Shown here one piece after another: positions 2,598-27,013 of a stretch of DNA of 34,042 bases (within the stretch, counting starts at the first letter, position 1; the number at the start of each line of letters is the position of its first letter). Origin of the DNA: Prevotellaceae bacterium (GTDB lineage: Bacteria; Bacteroidota; Bacteroidia; Bacteroidales; UBA932); contig JAISXV010000150.1 in the NCBI GenBank assembly GCA_031270335.1, positions 1 to 34,042 on the forward strand. The letters run 5' to 3'. Made by a program: the position numbers and the translations under genes. Below the pieces are notes generated by a model. That model was not told where the DNA came from. It worked only from the letters and a program-made list of their open reading frames with translations, and did not search any database.

Positions 2598-3425
2598 ATG
2601 GCAGAAATAAAAGCAACTGATGTTGCAAAACTGAGAAAAATGACCGGAGCAGGCATGATGGATTGTAAAAACGCTCTTGTCGAGGCTGATGGAGATTTTG
2701 ATCGCGCACAGGAAATCATTCGCGAAAAAGGAAAATTAATCGCCGCCAAACGCGCCGACCGCGAGACGACCGAAGGCGCCGTGATTGCCAAAGTAAACGA
2801 AAATGCTAAGGAAGGTATCCTTATCGCTCTCGGATGCGAAACGGATTTCGTCGCTAAAACAGATGATTTCAAGGCATTGGCAAACAAAATCGCCAAGGCT
2901 GCAATTACCGCTTTACCAAAAGATAAAGAGGCGTTGGAAGCTCTTGTTGTCGATGGATCGCCGATATCTCAACTTATCAGCGACCAAACCGGCAGAAGCG
3001 GTGAAAAACACGTTATTGCTACATACGAAAGAATTTCGGGCGAACATTTGGAATCGTATATCCACATGAACAACAAACTTGCTACTGTCGTTGCTTTCAA
3101 CAAGACCATTTCGGTCGAAGCCGGAAGAGACATTGCAATGCAGGTTGCTGCAATGAATCCCGTGTCGGTCAATAAAGAAGCTTGTTCTAAGGATGTTATC
3201 GAACGTGAACTGCAAATCGGAAGAGAGCAGGCGCGTCTCGAAAATAAACCGGAAAATATGATAGAGAAAATTGCCGAAGGTAAACTTAATAAGTTCTTTA
3301 AAGAAAATACTCTGAACTCTCAGGATTTCATTAAAGACCAGAAAATCTCTGTAAGCCAATATCTGAAAGGCGTTGACCCCGAAGTGTCGGTTACAGGATT
3401 TGTGCGATTCTCATTGAATGATTAG
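2598..3425 (+). CDS. tsf: Elongation factor Ts
   Basis: MAEIKATDVAKLRKMTGAGMMDCKNALVEADGDFDRAQEIIREKG..., EF-Ts N-terminal signature. Confidence 0.97.
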   Translation: MAEIKATDVAKLRKMTGAGMMDCKNALVEADGDFDRAQEIIREKGKLIAAKRADRETTEGAVIAKVNENAKEGILIALGCETDFVAKTDDFKALANKIAKAAITALPKDKEALEALVVDGSPISQLISDQTGRSGEKHVIATYERISGEHLESYIHMNNKLATVVAFNKTISVEAGRDIAMQVAAMNPVSVNKEACSKDVIERELQIGREQARLENKPENMIEKIAEGKLNKFFKENTLNSQDFIKDQKISVSQYLKGVDPEVSVTGFVRFSLND

Positions 3426-3634
3426 GCTTTAATTTATTTGTGAATATATTTGTGAAAGGTGGAAGGCTGTCTCGTAAAAAAGACGGCTTTCTTTTTGTAA
3501 GCCAATATCTGAAAGGCGTTGACCCCGAAGTGTCGGTTACAGGATTTGTGCGATTCTCATTGAATGATTAGGCTTTAAATTTATTTGTGAATATATTTGT
3601 GAAAGGCTGTCTCGTAAAAAAGGCGGCTTTCTTT
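3350..3634 (+). repeat. Tandem duplication (about 140 bp unit) of the tsf 3' end plus terminator
   Basis: GTAAGCCAATATCTGAAAGGCGTTGACCCC...GAATGATTAGGCTTTAA at 3351 recurs at 3497 (offset 146); coding part identical; later differences are 1-nt and 7-nt indels and one substitution. Confidence 0.92.
3463..3496 (+). terminator. tsf intrinsic terminator, copy 1
   Basis: AAGGCTGTCT-cgtaaaaa-AGACGGCTTT followed by CTTTTT. Confidence 0.75.
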
Positions 3635-3637
3635 ATT
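3603..3637 (+). terminator. tsf intrinsic terminator, copy 2 (duplicated)
   Basis: AAGGCTGTCT-cgtaaaaa-AGGCGGCTTT followed by T-rich tract; stem kept by G-U pairing. Confidence 0.7.
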
Positions 3638-3641
3638 TTAT

Positions 3642-3769
3642 AAAAAAGTAGTGGAATGTTAGAGGAATTGTTTAAAGTTTGAAGCAAATAATATTGAGTT
3701 TTCCGAAGGGATACACTCCACTACCTTATCTTTTTTTTATACCGCAAAAATAAAATCTCACATTTTGTC
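3642..3769 (-). ncRNA. Candidate small RNA A (6S-like / Bacteroidales-1-like architecture)
   Basis: Minus-strand TTTG (3801-3804)-N18-TACCTTTG (3775-3782) promoter; long closing stem GTAGTGGAgTGT/ACAtTCCACTAC (arms 3713-3724 and 3648-3659) then U-run (3647-3642); no ORF of note. Confidence 0.5.
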
Positions 3770-3774
3770 GGGCG

Positions 3775-3804
3775 CAAAGGTATATCTTTTTTTTACATTT
3801 CAAA
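3775..3804 (-). promoter_or_regulatory. Bacteroidetes-type promoter on minus strand for sRNA A
   Basis: TTTG-N18-TACCTTTG reading on the minus strand. Confidence 0.6.
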
Positions 3805-22208: not shown

Positions 22209-22613
22209 GGGGATGTTTTTGGTTTTGACAGCAAGGTTAGATTGAAATGTAAGCACGTCGAGCGTTGTGATTTAGCTCGTTAATCTCAGGTCTCAAGCCA
22301 TTAATTGGCAACAACAACTATGCTCTCGCAGCCTGATTTACACCAAGTGTAACGGCTTAATCCGACGACCCAAGGCTGGTCGTTGGACGAGAATCTCGCA
22401 AAAGACCCGCCTTTCGGTATTTTGATTTTGAGGTTTCATACATAGGAAGGATAGTGTGCGCGACACCTTTAAACGTACGCAAAAATTTCAAAGGCTAAGG
22501 ATAAAACCGATGGCTTCTTATCATGTTTTATCCCGACAAAATGAAAAGAAGATAAACGCGTAGAAAACATTTGGTCACTTGTTTGGACGCGAGTTCGACT
22601 CTCGCCATCTCCA
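22209..22613 (+). ncRNA. ssrA: tmRNA (SsrA), tag GNNNYALAA
   Basis: 5' GGGGATG pairs with 3' CATCTCC (22606-22612); T arm GCGAGTTCGACTCTCGC; tag ORF GGCAACAACAACTATGCTCTCGCAGCCTGA at 22307-22336. Confidence 0.95.
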
Positions 22614-23422
22614 CGATAGGGGTTAAGTCGCTCAAAATAAGACTGTTACAGGGCGCAAAAAAGTGGTAAGATACACTAAGATACACTAAGGATACATTTA
22701 AAAATAAGTTGGTAAGAATCAGAGTGTTACAAATAGCCAAAGCGACTTAAACGTATCGGAATGATAATTAACCGCAATTAACCGCAATGTTATGGCTGAT
22801 GCTTTAGTAGAGATAGAGTCTATAGCTAGCGCAATAGAAGGTTTACGGGAAGAAATATAATTATTAAAACGGGGGACTGGGAATATTGCAGTGCCCTAAA
22901 AAAAGAACTGTAGGAAATAAAGTTGGATAAAGATAATTGGCGTTATTGCTTATATGGTAAGTAAAATATTATAAATTAATTAAATGGATTTGGAAATAAT
23001 AAAGAGCCGGAATGGGAAAATATCTCATCACAATTTGTGATGACATCGCGTTCGAAACGCCCAAAGTCAGCTTTGCCGTTTGCCTTTACCGAACTGGGTG
23101 TCGCCATGTTAAGCAGCGTATTAAATTCCGGTGCGGCAATTGAAACAAACAAAGATATTATGCGTGCGTTCGTTGCATTGCGTCAATATGCCTTGAGCTA
23201 TGCGGAACTCAACCAAAAATTAGAGCAATTTATGATTGAAACAAATATGCAATTCAATGAAATATATCAAGCTTTGACCGAAATTGCAGAACAGAAGAAA
23301 GCAAACGAAAAGCCTCGCCGCCGGATAGGGTTGTCTTTGGAAATCAAAATGAAGAAAATGATTTTGAAAAATTAAAATCATAAATCCACGTTCCGCATAA
23401 TTTCTCTCCATCTCCACAATAG
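22606..23422. mobile_element. Putative decayed integration scar downstream of ssrA
   Basis: Bounded by near-identical 3'-ssrA sequences CCATCTCCACGATAG (22605-22619) and CCATCTCCACAATAG (23408-23422); contains inverted/tandem repeats and an ORF6N pseudogene; no integrase. Confidence 0.5.
22984..23375 (+). pseudogene. ORF6N-domain protein, internally deleted and frameshifted
   Basis: MDLEIIKSR (ATG 22984) resembles the ORF6N family start; a different frame then gives EWENISSQFVMTSRSKRPKSALPFAFTELGVAMLSSVLNS...MRAFVALRQYALSYAELNQKLEQFMIETNMQFNEIYQALTEIAEQKKANEKPRRRIG. Confidence 0.75.
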
Positions 23423-23623: not shown

Positions 23624-25438
23624 ATGACAAAAAAATTGGTTCTATTATTAAGTATTGCAGTGATATTTACGCAAACAATCACTGCGCAGGATTCTCCCGA
23701 ATGGGCGAAAGATTTGATTATTTGCGAGATTGCTACTCGCGGTTTTACGTCTCCCGATGGACCCGAAAGCGGCAATTTCAAGGGTGTACAGGAGAAATTG
23801 CCTTATCTTCAAAAGTTGGGAATCACCGGTATCTGGCTGACAGGCACAAATCTCGGCGACCCGAAACATTTCTACAACATTTGGACGCAGTACGCTTGCG
23901 TCGATCCGGCTAAACTTGATCCGGCATTGGGGACGTCCGGCGAATTTAAGGCGCTCATCGACGAGGCGCATCAGCGTGGTATCAAAGTATTTATGGACGT
24001 CATTACTCACGGAGTGATGAACGACAGCCCGCTGATTAAGGAACATCCCGAATGGTTTCGCGGAGGCAGTTGGGGAATGACCGATTTCGACTGGTACGGT
24101 AATCATAAAGATTTGGATGACTGGTGGGTTAAGACTTTTACCGACTGGGTCGTTGATTATGGTATTGACGGTTATCGTTTGGACGTCAATATTTATCGTC
24201 CCGATCTGTGGAAACTCATCAAGCAGAACGCAGTCGGCGCCGGTCATCCGATTGTGGTTTTCAATGAATCGTGGGTTCACAGCGAAGGTTCCGGCGATTT
24301 TTTGCAACGAATGGTAACGCTCTCGAATCAACGCATGGGACCCGATATGAATGTGTTGCTGCACCGGGATGTTACAAAGCATTATCAACAGTTTGACTAT
24401 TTCCGTATTCTTGAAGTCGAAATTCAATACACGGACAAAAGCGCAGATCATGGCTATTTTGACGTCAAACCGTTTTTAGACGCTGCCATTGTCGGACATT
24501 ACGACCCAAACCCGAAAGGCGCTTTGAAACTGACTCTACTCAATTCGCCCGTTCAGCCGACGCTCGAAAAACAGGAACCACAACGCCTGCTTATCGAAGG
24601 AGTAAATCCCGACAAAGTAATCCGCCGTGTCAGCATCCGTCCGCTTGGATGGAATTTGCGATATAACTTCGGGATACAAGGTTCGTTACTCGCAGGATTC
24701 ACAGGCAGTTCCCGTTACGAAATGGAAATCACGCCGTTTGTTCCCGACAGGTTGCTCTATTCGACACAACTCTCAAGTCACGACGACGGCTGGGAAGGTT
24801 CTCCCTTAGACAAAAATCCCTACGTCGCCGAAGGCAGTCGCTCGATGTTCGGCTACAGTTGCCTGTTTACGCCGTCGATACCGCTGTTTATGAGCGGCGA
24901 AGAGTTTAATGCCGATTATATTCCATTGCCCTCGCACACGCCCGACCTCTGGGGAAAAGGCGAACAGGGAAAAGGTCGCTGGCTATACGCTTCGATGATT
25001 GACTGGGAACAACTTAAACAGCCGTCGAAACAGGATATGCTCGACGACGTAACGCGAATGATAGCAATCCGCAAAGCCGACGTCGACCTTTTCCGTCCGC
25101 TGACCTCCGACAAAAAACCGCCTTTGAAAACGGTAGCATTGCAGACGACAGGCGTCGATAAGGATTCAATACCTGTGCCTTACATGTTGTATAACGAGCG
25201 TAAAGCCATTGTTGTTTGCGGCAACACAACGGACATGACCGTAAAAGGCGTTTTGAATATTTCGCTTGCCGGTACGCCGCTCGAAAATGCAAAGCGACTT
25301 CAAATCACCGACCTTTGGAACGGCGGTAAAGCCAAGCGTATCAAAGCTGAAGATTTGCAGAAATATCCTGTTGTCATGAAACCCGACAAAACAAAACGTG
25401 GCGGAGTTGCCGTGTTGAAAATCGAAGTCGTGCAGTGA
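23624..25438 (+). CDS. Secreted GH13-family alpha-amylase-like glycoside hydrolase
   Basis: Signal peptide; LGITGIWLTG, FMDVITHGVM, GIDGYRLDVN (nucleophile), VVFNESW (acid/base), SSHDD. Confidence 0.88.
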   Translation: MTKKLVLLLSIAVIFTQTITAQDSPEWAKDLIICEIATRGFTSPDGPESGNFKGVQEKLPYLQKLGITGIWLTGTNLGDPKHFYNIWTQYACVDPAKLDPALGTSGEFKALIDEAHQRGIKVFMDVITHGVMNDSPLIKEHPEWFRGGSWGMTDFDWYGNHKDLDDWWVKTFTDWVVDYGIDGYRLDVNIYRPDLWKLIKQNAVGAGHPIVVFNESWVHSEGSGDFLQRMVTLSNQRMGPDMNVLLHRDVTKHYQQFDYFRILEVEIQYTDKSADHGYFDVKPFLDAAIVGHYDPNPKGALKLTLLNSPVQPTLEKQEPQRLLIEGVNPDKVIRRVSIRPLGWNLRYNFGIQGSLLAGFTGSSRYEMEITPFVPDRLLYSTQLSSHDDGWEGSPLDKNPYVAEGSRSMFGYSCLFTPSIPLFMSGEEFNADYIPLPSHTPDLWGKGEQGKGRWLYASMIDWEQLKQPSKQDMLDDVTRMIAIRKADVDLFRPLTSDKKPPLKTVALQTTGVDKDSIPVPYMLYNERKAIVVCGNTTDMTVKGVLNISLAGTPLENAKRLQITDLWNGGKAKRIKAEDLQKYPVVMKPDKTKRGGVAVLKIEVVQ

Positions 25439-25467
25439 TGCAATCGGACAGGAAAATAAAAAATAAA

Positions 25468-25510
25468 AAAATAGTGTTATAATAGGATTTTGCATAACAC
25501 TATTTTTTTT
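25468..25510 (+). terminator. Intrinsic terminator after GH13 gene
   Basis: AAATAGTGTTAT-aataggattttgc-ATAACACTATTT followed by T-run. Confidence 0.75.
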
Positions 25511-25544: not shown

Positions 25545-25689
25545 AAAAAAGAGAGGCATCAAGGAGAAAATAAAATAAAATAGGGTTGAAACAAAATATG
25601 AGAAGTTTCCCATGGAAGATGCCCCTCTAGATCTCAATAAAAAAATCCTTTTTTCAAAAACTACGAACCCAACTTCGCTACAAAATCAA
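25545..25689 (-). ncRNA. Candidate small RNA B (same architecture as sRNA A)
   Basis: Minus-strand TTTG (25725-25728)-N22-TACCTTTG (25695-25702) promoter; closing stem AGAGGggCATC/GATGCCTCT (arms 25618-25628 and 25552-25560) then U-run; no ORF. Confidence 0.5.
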
Positions 25690-25694
25690 GGGCG

Positions 25695-25728
25695 CAAAGG
25701 TACATATTTTTTTTGAATATAAACCAAA
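25695..25728 (-). promoter_or_regulatory. Bacteroidetes-type promoter on minus strand for sRNA B
   Basis: TTTG-N22-TACCTTTG followed by CGCCC, as at sRNA A. Confidence 0.6.
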
Positions 25729-25735
25729 AAAATAA

Positions 25736-27013
25736 TCACCATGCGAACAGATTTAATGATTTCATCAATATATTTACTTCTTTTTTAATATCTTGCAATA
25801 TGTTTTTATTTTCGATATTAGATAAAACTTTATCAATAAAAAGCACAATATTTTCCATATCGGCTTCTTTTAAACCACGTGTTGTGACGGCTGCGGCGCC
25901 AAATCGCAATCCCGAAGTCTGGAATGGCGAGCGGCTGTCGAACGGCACCATATTCTTGTTTGTGGTAATATCTGCCTCAACCAAAACCTTTTCCGCCTGT
26001 TTACCCGTCAGGTCGGGAAATTTCGACCGTAAATCTACAAGCATCAAGTGGTTGTCGGTGCCGCCGGAAATGACTTTATATCCTTTGTTTATAAGAGCGT
26101 TAGCCATTGCTACAGCGTTCTTTTTCACCTGTAACTGATATTCCTTATACTCCGGTTGAAGCGCTTCGAAAAACGATACCGCTTTGGCAGCGATAACGTG
26201 TTCGAGAGGACCGCCCTGTATTCCCGGGAAAACAGCGGAATTAAGTATCTGCGACATCAGTTTCACTTGACCCTTAGGCGTTTTGAGATTCCATGGATTT
26301 TCGAAATCTTCGCCCATCAGGATAATGCCGCCACGAGGACCTCTCAGCGTCTTGTGCGTGGTAGAAGTAACGATGTGAGCGTGTTTCAATGGATTATTCA
26401 AAAGCCCGGCGGCAATAAGCCCCGCAGGATGAGCCATATCGACCATCAACAAGGCGCCGATTTTATCGGCGATATCTCTCATGCGGGCATAATCCCATTC
26501 TCTCGAATATGCCGAAGCGCCGCCCACTATCAACTTGGGTTTATGCTCGAGCGCCGTCTTTTCCATTGCGTCATAGTCAATGAAACCGTTTTCATCTACT
26601 CCGTAAGACACTGCTTTAAACCACATTCCCGAAATGTTGACGCCCGAACCGTGAGTTAAATGTCCTCCATGCGACAAATCAAGTCCCATAAACGTGTCGC
26701 CCGGATTCAGGCACGCCACAAACACCGCCATATTCGCCTGCGCTCCCGAATGAGGCTGAACATTTGCATATTTAGCATCAAACAATTGACAGACACGGTC
26801 GATAGCTAATTGTTCCGATTTGTCCACGACTTCGCAGCCGCCGTAATATCTTGCTCCCGGATAACCTTCGGCATATTTGTTGGTCAACACCGAGCCCATG
26901 GCTTGCAACACCTGGTCGCTGACAAAATTTTCGGACGCAATCAGTTCTATTCCCGATATTTGTCGTTTCCGTTCTTCGCTTATTAAGTCAAATATTCTGC
27001 TGTCTGTTTTCAT
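25736..27013 (-). CDS. glyA: Serine hydroxymethyltransferase
   Basis: [44 protein letters not shown]...[16 protein letters not shown]. Confidence 0.97.

Follow-up and report, generated by a model that had tools for sequence, protein, structure and literature searches.

The minus strand between a GH13 gene and glyA, in the 34,042-nt stretch of DNA analyzed here (the window), raises the question of whether it encodes a small RNA and, if so, of what kind. An earlier note on this DNA had proposed that the locus (sRNA B) and a second one in the window (sRNA A) are two paralogous sRNAs with diverged closing stems, possibly duplicate 6S-like RNAs.

Anatomy and conservation of sRNA B

The genes flanking sRNA B converge as described, with GH13 (plus strand) ending at 25438 and glyA (minus strand) ending at 25736. 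Inspection of the minus strand between them recovers the proposed anatomy, in which a promoter, an AU-rich leader, a 77-nt rod and a T-run each lie where they had been placed. The promoter (25695-25728, minus) reads TTTG-N22-TACCTTTG and is of the Bacteroidota primary sigma type, with elements at -33/-7 and the TTTG/TAnnTTTG consensus taken from PMC7366714. Read on the minus strand, CGCCC directly follows the TACCTTTG box and gives way to the leader. The rod, AGAGGGGCATC...GATGCCTCT, occupies 25628-25552 (minus, 77 nt); the string reported for the locus was correct throughout, save that a single C (25551) between the 77-mer and TTTTTT had been omitted. These six letters (25550-25545, minus), read directly, form the T-run of the terminator. 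With the start inferred from the -7 box and the 3' end from the T-run, the predicted transcript covers 25545-25690 (minus, about 140-146 nt). Its 5' leader (25629-25690, minus; 66 nt here) is variable, ranging from 60 to 94 nt among species with 43-83% identity between them. Two further features of the window were observed alongside. A bidirectional terminator-like hairpin (AAATAGTGTTAT...ATAACACTATTT, 25465-25509) lies between GH13 and sRNA B and probably serves the GH13 gene, and a tmRNA (22209-22614; tag GNNNYALAA) is preceded by a TACCTTTG promoter box.

A DNA search of 100 relatives found B homologs in 11 of the 13 genomes of the genus (this one and 10 of the 12 others). Homologs of A were found in 11 of 13 by the same search, with one A and one B per carrying genome. 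Outside the genus, this search returned nothing for B except a 32-nt match in one relative (G066) that covers only the T-rich 3' end, and 87 genomes from other genera held no match to a covariance model of B. When 84,980 species were scanned with the 23-nt motif shared by A and B, rods were returned in this genus only, always either A or B, and the remaining hits were attributable to chance. No Rfam family matches A or B; the family is unannotated in Rfam and, as far as searched, confined to one genus. It belongs to a group of insect-gut Bacteroidota, of which at least the Kf353 genomes were recovered from termite gut (Kalotermes flavicollis; PMC11707648).

Conservation of B is concentrated in a 33-nt block, GGGAAACUUCUCAUAUUUUGUUUCAACCCUAUU (25579-25611, minus), which comprises the 5' strand of an inner helix (P2, below) and most of the apical loop. 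The block is identical in 8 of the 9 glyA-linked B homologs tested and unchanged in 9 of 11 aligned homologs, being altered only in G012 and G008. Across the glyA-linked comparisons, four-fold degenerate sites of that gene show 36-64% identity. That is to say, the loop block is invariant where neutral glyA sites are near saturation, which indicates strong purifying selection on the RNA. Between distant species, leader identity falls to 43-51%, and a TAnnTTTG box is present upstream in all 11 homologs. In 10 of these, B follows glyA immediately on its 3' side and on the same strand; the G008 copy, which keeps its core and its own promoter, is flanked by genes for an AsmA-like protein and a tadA-like deaminase (names by reading of translations). 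Because the core is kept where B is not beside glyA, B appears to act in trans with a function independent of glyA. Judged by these sequence features, sRNA B is a genuine, conserved and independently transcribed small RNA.

Fold and paralogy of A and B

The predicted sRNA A (about 3642 to 3771 or 3774, minus; ~130 nt, start inferred) is preceded by a promoter, TTTG-N18-TACCTTTG (3775-3804, minus), whose box is kept in 11 of 11 A homologs. Adjoining A in the window is a ~70-bp direct duplication downstream of tsf (3420-3650; AAAGCCG(C/T)CTTTTTTACGAGACAGCC...CACAAATATATTCACAAATAAA), and the A homolog of one relative (locus L030 of G011) carries a 7-nt CTTCAAA duplication within an otherwise invariant loop.

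Both rods fold better than shuffled sequences, with z = -3.2 for B (0 of 200 shuffles as good) and z = -3.0 for A (1 of 200), and folding of the whole 151-nt B transcript is no better than chance (z = -0.9). The closing stem of B, P1, is an 11-bp stem enclosing a 57-nt interior, in which the 5' arm (AGAGGGGCATC, 25618-25628, minus) pairs with the 3' arm (GATGCCTCTCT, 25550-25560, minus), the latter also forming the intrinsic terminator stem. P1 of B varies little; its homologs show one compensatory pair and two wobble pairs. The closing stem of A (5' arm 3713-3724, 3' arm 3648-3659, both minus) shows eight pairs changed on both sides, a score matched by 0 of 500 shuffles and far above that of slid controls; all eight doubly changed pairs come from the single divergent G008 sequence.

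Within P1, the minimum-free-energy inner hairpin of B, GGGAAAC..GUUUCAACCC, was rejected upon finding that a G-to-A change in G012 breaks its pairing. For this reason we prefer an inner helix P2 formed by GGGAAA (25606-25611, minus) and UUUCUC (25564-25569, minus), which was assigned manually and has the backing of few changes: at its second base pair, most homologs have GU, G012 has AU and G008 has GC. P2 of A is GGAA/UUCC, extended in G008 to GGAAA/UUUCC. In the fold modeled for both RNAs, P1 would lead through a small internal loop into P2, capped by an unpaired apical loop of ~33-37 nt.

The interior blocks said to be shared by A and B are real, in that they beat shuffles and the covariance models of each RNA detect the other. 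A and B align gaplessly as AAACTYNNYATWWTTTGYTTCAA, the motif with which the 84,980 species were scanned. A global alignment of the loops alone reaches a score matched by 17 of 6000 dinucleotide shuffles in this genome and by 4 of 6000 in G008, the most divergent species. With a model built from A homologs only, B is the second-best hit in the window (24.8 bits, E = 0.002); with one built from B homologs only (R2), the second-best hit is A (30.5 bits, E = 5e-5). Conservation, compensatory changes and these reciprocal matches thus bear out the proposal of two paralogous sRNAs with diverged closing stems, and support the conclusion that A and B are ancient paralogs. A covariance-model search of the genome for further copies yielded no third paralog; the weaker R1/R2 model matches considered for that role had no promoter, stem or T-run.

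Complementarity between the 5' end of A and the loop of B

Complementarity scans link the two RNAs. The 5' end of A, GACAAAAUGUGAGA (3756-3769, minus), lies directly after the -7 box and is antisense to a site within the B loop, UCUCAUAUUUUGUU (25590-25603, minus). In 9 of 11 species the two segments form 14-16 contiguous pairs, an extent equaled by 0-2 of 400 shuffles, and in G002 the leader of A has changed such that complementarity is longer (16). G010 shows a weaker match (11 nt, reached by 81 of 400 shuffles), and that of G008 (10 nt, 159 of 400) lacks significance. Across the 11 species, no consistent signal was obtained for the B leader against the A loop, the B leader against the B loop, or the A leader against the A loop. 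Given the relatedness of the species, these nine cases do not count as independent observations.

Of the 260 leaders that follow a promoter in 0.86 Mb of this genome, the A leader matches the B loop best (14 nt, the next reaching 12). Within this genome, exact copies of the 13-mer ACAAAATRTGAGA are confined to the A leader and the complement of B itself; the other twelve genomes hold four unrelated matches, and a reversed control gives two in all thirteen. When G-U pairs are allowed, 14-nt matches to the B loop elsewhere are not rare, so the case for A-B pairing rests on position and conservation and not on uniqueness alone.

A search for other partners gave less. Whole-genome searches with the 18-nt complement of the B loop showed no excess over a reversed control, and near-full or long complements of the loop in mRNAs are not enriched in the genomes. 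Duplex energies against ~570 translation-start regions were slightly, though not significantly, more favorable than those of shuffles for B (z about 1.6-1.8) and no more favorable for A. Matches to rRNA (with E. coli rRNA as a stand-in), tmRNA and 6S RNA did not exceed those of shuffles. The B loop is more conserved than a single co-evolving partner requires, so further partners, or else a protein that binds it, must exist. The genome encodes three proteins matching RRM_1, one nearly full-length (G000:C251:4962-5159) and two partial (C114:3713-3841 and C260:3830-3949). These are candidates for a counterpart of RbpB, an RRM_1-class protein of Bacteroides thetaiotaomicron that binds single-stranded regions of sRNAs (PMC11697453).

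From these observations we lean toward a model in which A and B are diverged paralogous, trans-acting, base-pairing sRNAs with a seed in the large loop of the terminator hairpin, wired to each other; we rate this reading slightly above even. B would be transcribed from its own primary-sigma promoter, and its locus closes with a terminator hairpin whose loop is very large. The compensatory and wobble-preserving changes suggest that P1 and P2 hold this ~33-nt apical loop open as the functional part, and the open loop may serve as a single-stranded seed pairing with other RNAs, much as described for the terminator-loop seeds of LhrC (PMC4132741). Because A begins with ~14 nt antisense to the B loop, it probably binds B, which would sponge or titrate B, or the reverse. 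The sequences themselves display the locus, promoter box, stems, paralogy, conservation and complementarity; transcription, A-B pairing in the cell, control of one RNA by the other and mRNA targets are predictions drawn from them. More tentatively, and with somewhat less than even confidence, we suggest that after duplication the 5' end of A became antisense to the hairpin loop of B, as a built-in sponge or regulator, with the activity of each RNA's regulon thereby set by the opposite locus.

Alternative readings and related systems

The idea that A and B are duplicate 6S-like RNAs binding RNA polymerase draws on their intergenic position, primary-sigma promoters and rod-like form, and 6S RNA (RF01685, 6S-Flavo; RF01693, Bacteroidales-1) is likewise a stable intergenic RNA with a long closing stem. 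This part of the earlier note did not hold up against the lack of an Rfam match, the presence of a separate 6S RNA in the genus or the difference in fold. Neither RNA is similar to Rfam families: no 6S family is found among matches up to E = 10 for B or A, and Bacteroidales-1 (RF01693) is absent. Sub-threshold, full-length matches to 6S-Flavo (RF01685) occur in 17 relatives of other genera. Twelve of these were aligned, revealing invariant ACUCAACA and ACAGGCC-type blocks, and a 6S model built from the twelve finds a well-formed ~140-nt 6S RNA in 10 of the 13 genus genomes, this one included (G000:C289:6695-6834; locus L182, 1501-1640; 74 bits, E = 4e-15). As the genus has a normal, separate 6S RNA, A and B are something else, which agrees with their different sequence, half the size, single apical loop and lack of a central bubble. 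We consider the 6S-like reading exceedingly improbable. The genus thus does carry a 6S RNA, one that current models overlook; in many Bacteroidales relatives, 6S RNA goes undetected or receives too low a score with the Rfam 6S-Flavo model (27-43 bits versus a cut-off of 85).

That B immediately follows glyA, in the same orientation, in 10 of 11 homologs would also suit a mere terminator or 3' UTR element of that gene. This is very unlikely given that every B copy has its own promoter box, that G008 keeps the core away from glyA, that the loop is constrained far beyond the needs of termination, and that the paralog A is located elsewhere. Least probable of all is a short membrane peptide (MGNFSYFVSTLFYFIFSLMPLFFN) encoded in the B rod: a 24-codon ATG frame is open in this genome, but it is disrupted among homologs by length differences of 3, 5 and 7 nt, ends at an early stop in G002 and lacks an ATG in G008. 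The main rival to base-pairing is that A and B work mainly via protein, where the invariant loop would be a ligand that sequesters an RRM or other RNA-binding protein in a CsrB-like manner. A long invariant single-stranded block in a genome that encodes an RRM_1 protein is in keeping with this, as is the binding of single-stranded sRNA regions by RbpB of B. thetaiotaomicron (PMC11697453). However, the loops of A and B differ at many positions, each being invariant in its own lineage, so one shared protein would not explain both. There is also no repeated short motif, and a protein ligand does not predict the complementarity between the A 5' end and B. We consider this rival unlikely, and base-pairing remains the reading we prefer.

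Paralogous Bacteroidota sRNAs (FopS), terminator-loop seeds and sRNA sponges are each already known. FopS/GibS of B. thetaiotaomicron (PMC11697453, PMC7366714) share with A and B the phylum, an intergenic paralogous arrangement and an intrinsic terminator. The canonical TTTG/TAnnTTTG primary-sigma promoter of FopS is found at A and B too, and an RRM_1 protein is encoded in both lineages. FopS comprises 12-15 copies of 65-70 nt with a conserved seed at the 5' end (PMC11697453, PMC7366714). In contrast, A and B are two copies of ~130-145 nt in which the loop of the terminal hairpin is conserved, and the 5' end of B is variable. None of the Bacteroides sRNAs in Rfam matches, BTnc231 reaching 15.6 bits against a cut-off of 80.

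LhrC of Listeria (PMC4132741) offers a likeness of a different kind, namely paralogous sRNAs with a terminator loop able to pair with target mRNA, an ability that is predicted for A and B. A conserved single-stranded seed in a terminator loop, as in the LhrC-like mode, is consistent with the 33-nt invariant block of B and with the covariation of the A stem. LhrC, from Firmicutes, has short CU-rich seeds repeated in several loops, whereas A and B have no sequence relation to it and a loop of ~33 nt that is AU-rich. In sponge or sRNA-sRNA pairs, one sRNA pairs with and may titrate another, as described in reports of a C. difficile network (PMC10267692) and of a PinT antagonist (PMC12721325). Relative to those pairs, A and B are distinct in that the partners are themselves paralogs and that a 5' end would meet a hairpin loop, in an interaction that is predicted.

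If true, a pair of paralogs in which one 5' end is antisense to the loop of the other would be new. A and B form a family that lacks annotation and whose loop is under exceptional constraint, and the predicted pairing of one paralogous sRNA with the other is concrete enough to be probed by mutation. To our knowledge, very few Bacteroidota sRNAs have been described outside Bacteroides, and how sRNAs of this phylum recognize targets without Hfq is an open question. Elsewhere in this genome, tandem TAGGGTATGGGGA-type repeats were observed at two loci (L239, 10589-10660; L253, 18290-18320).
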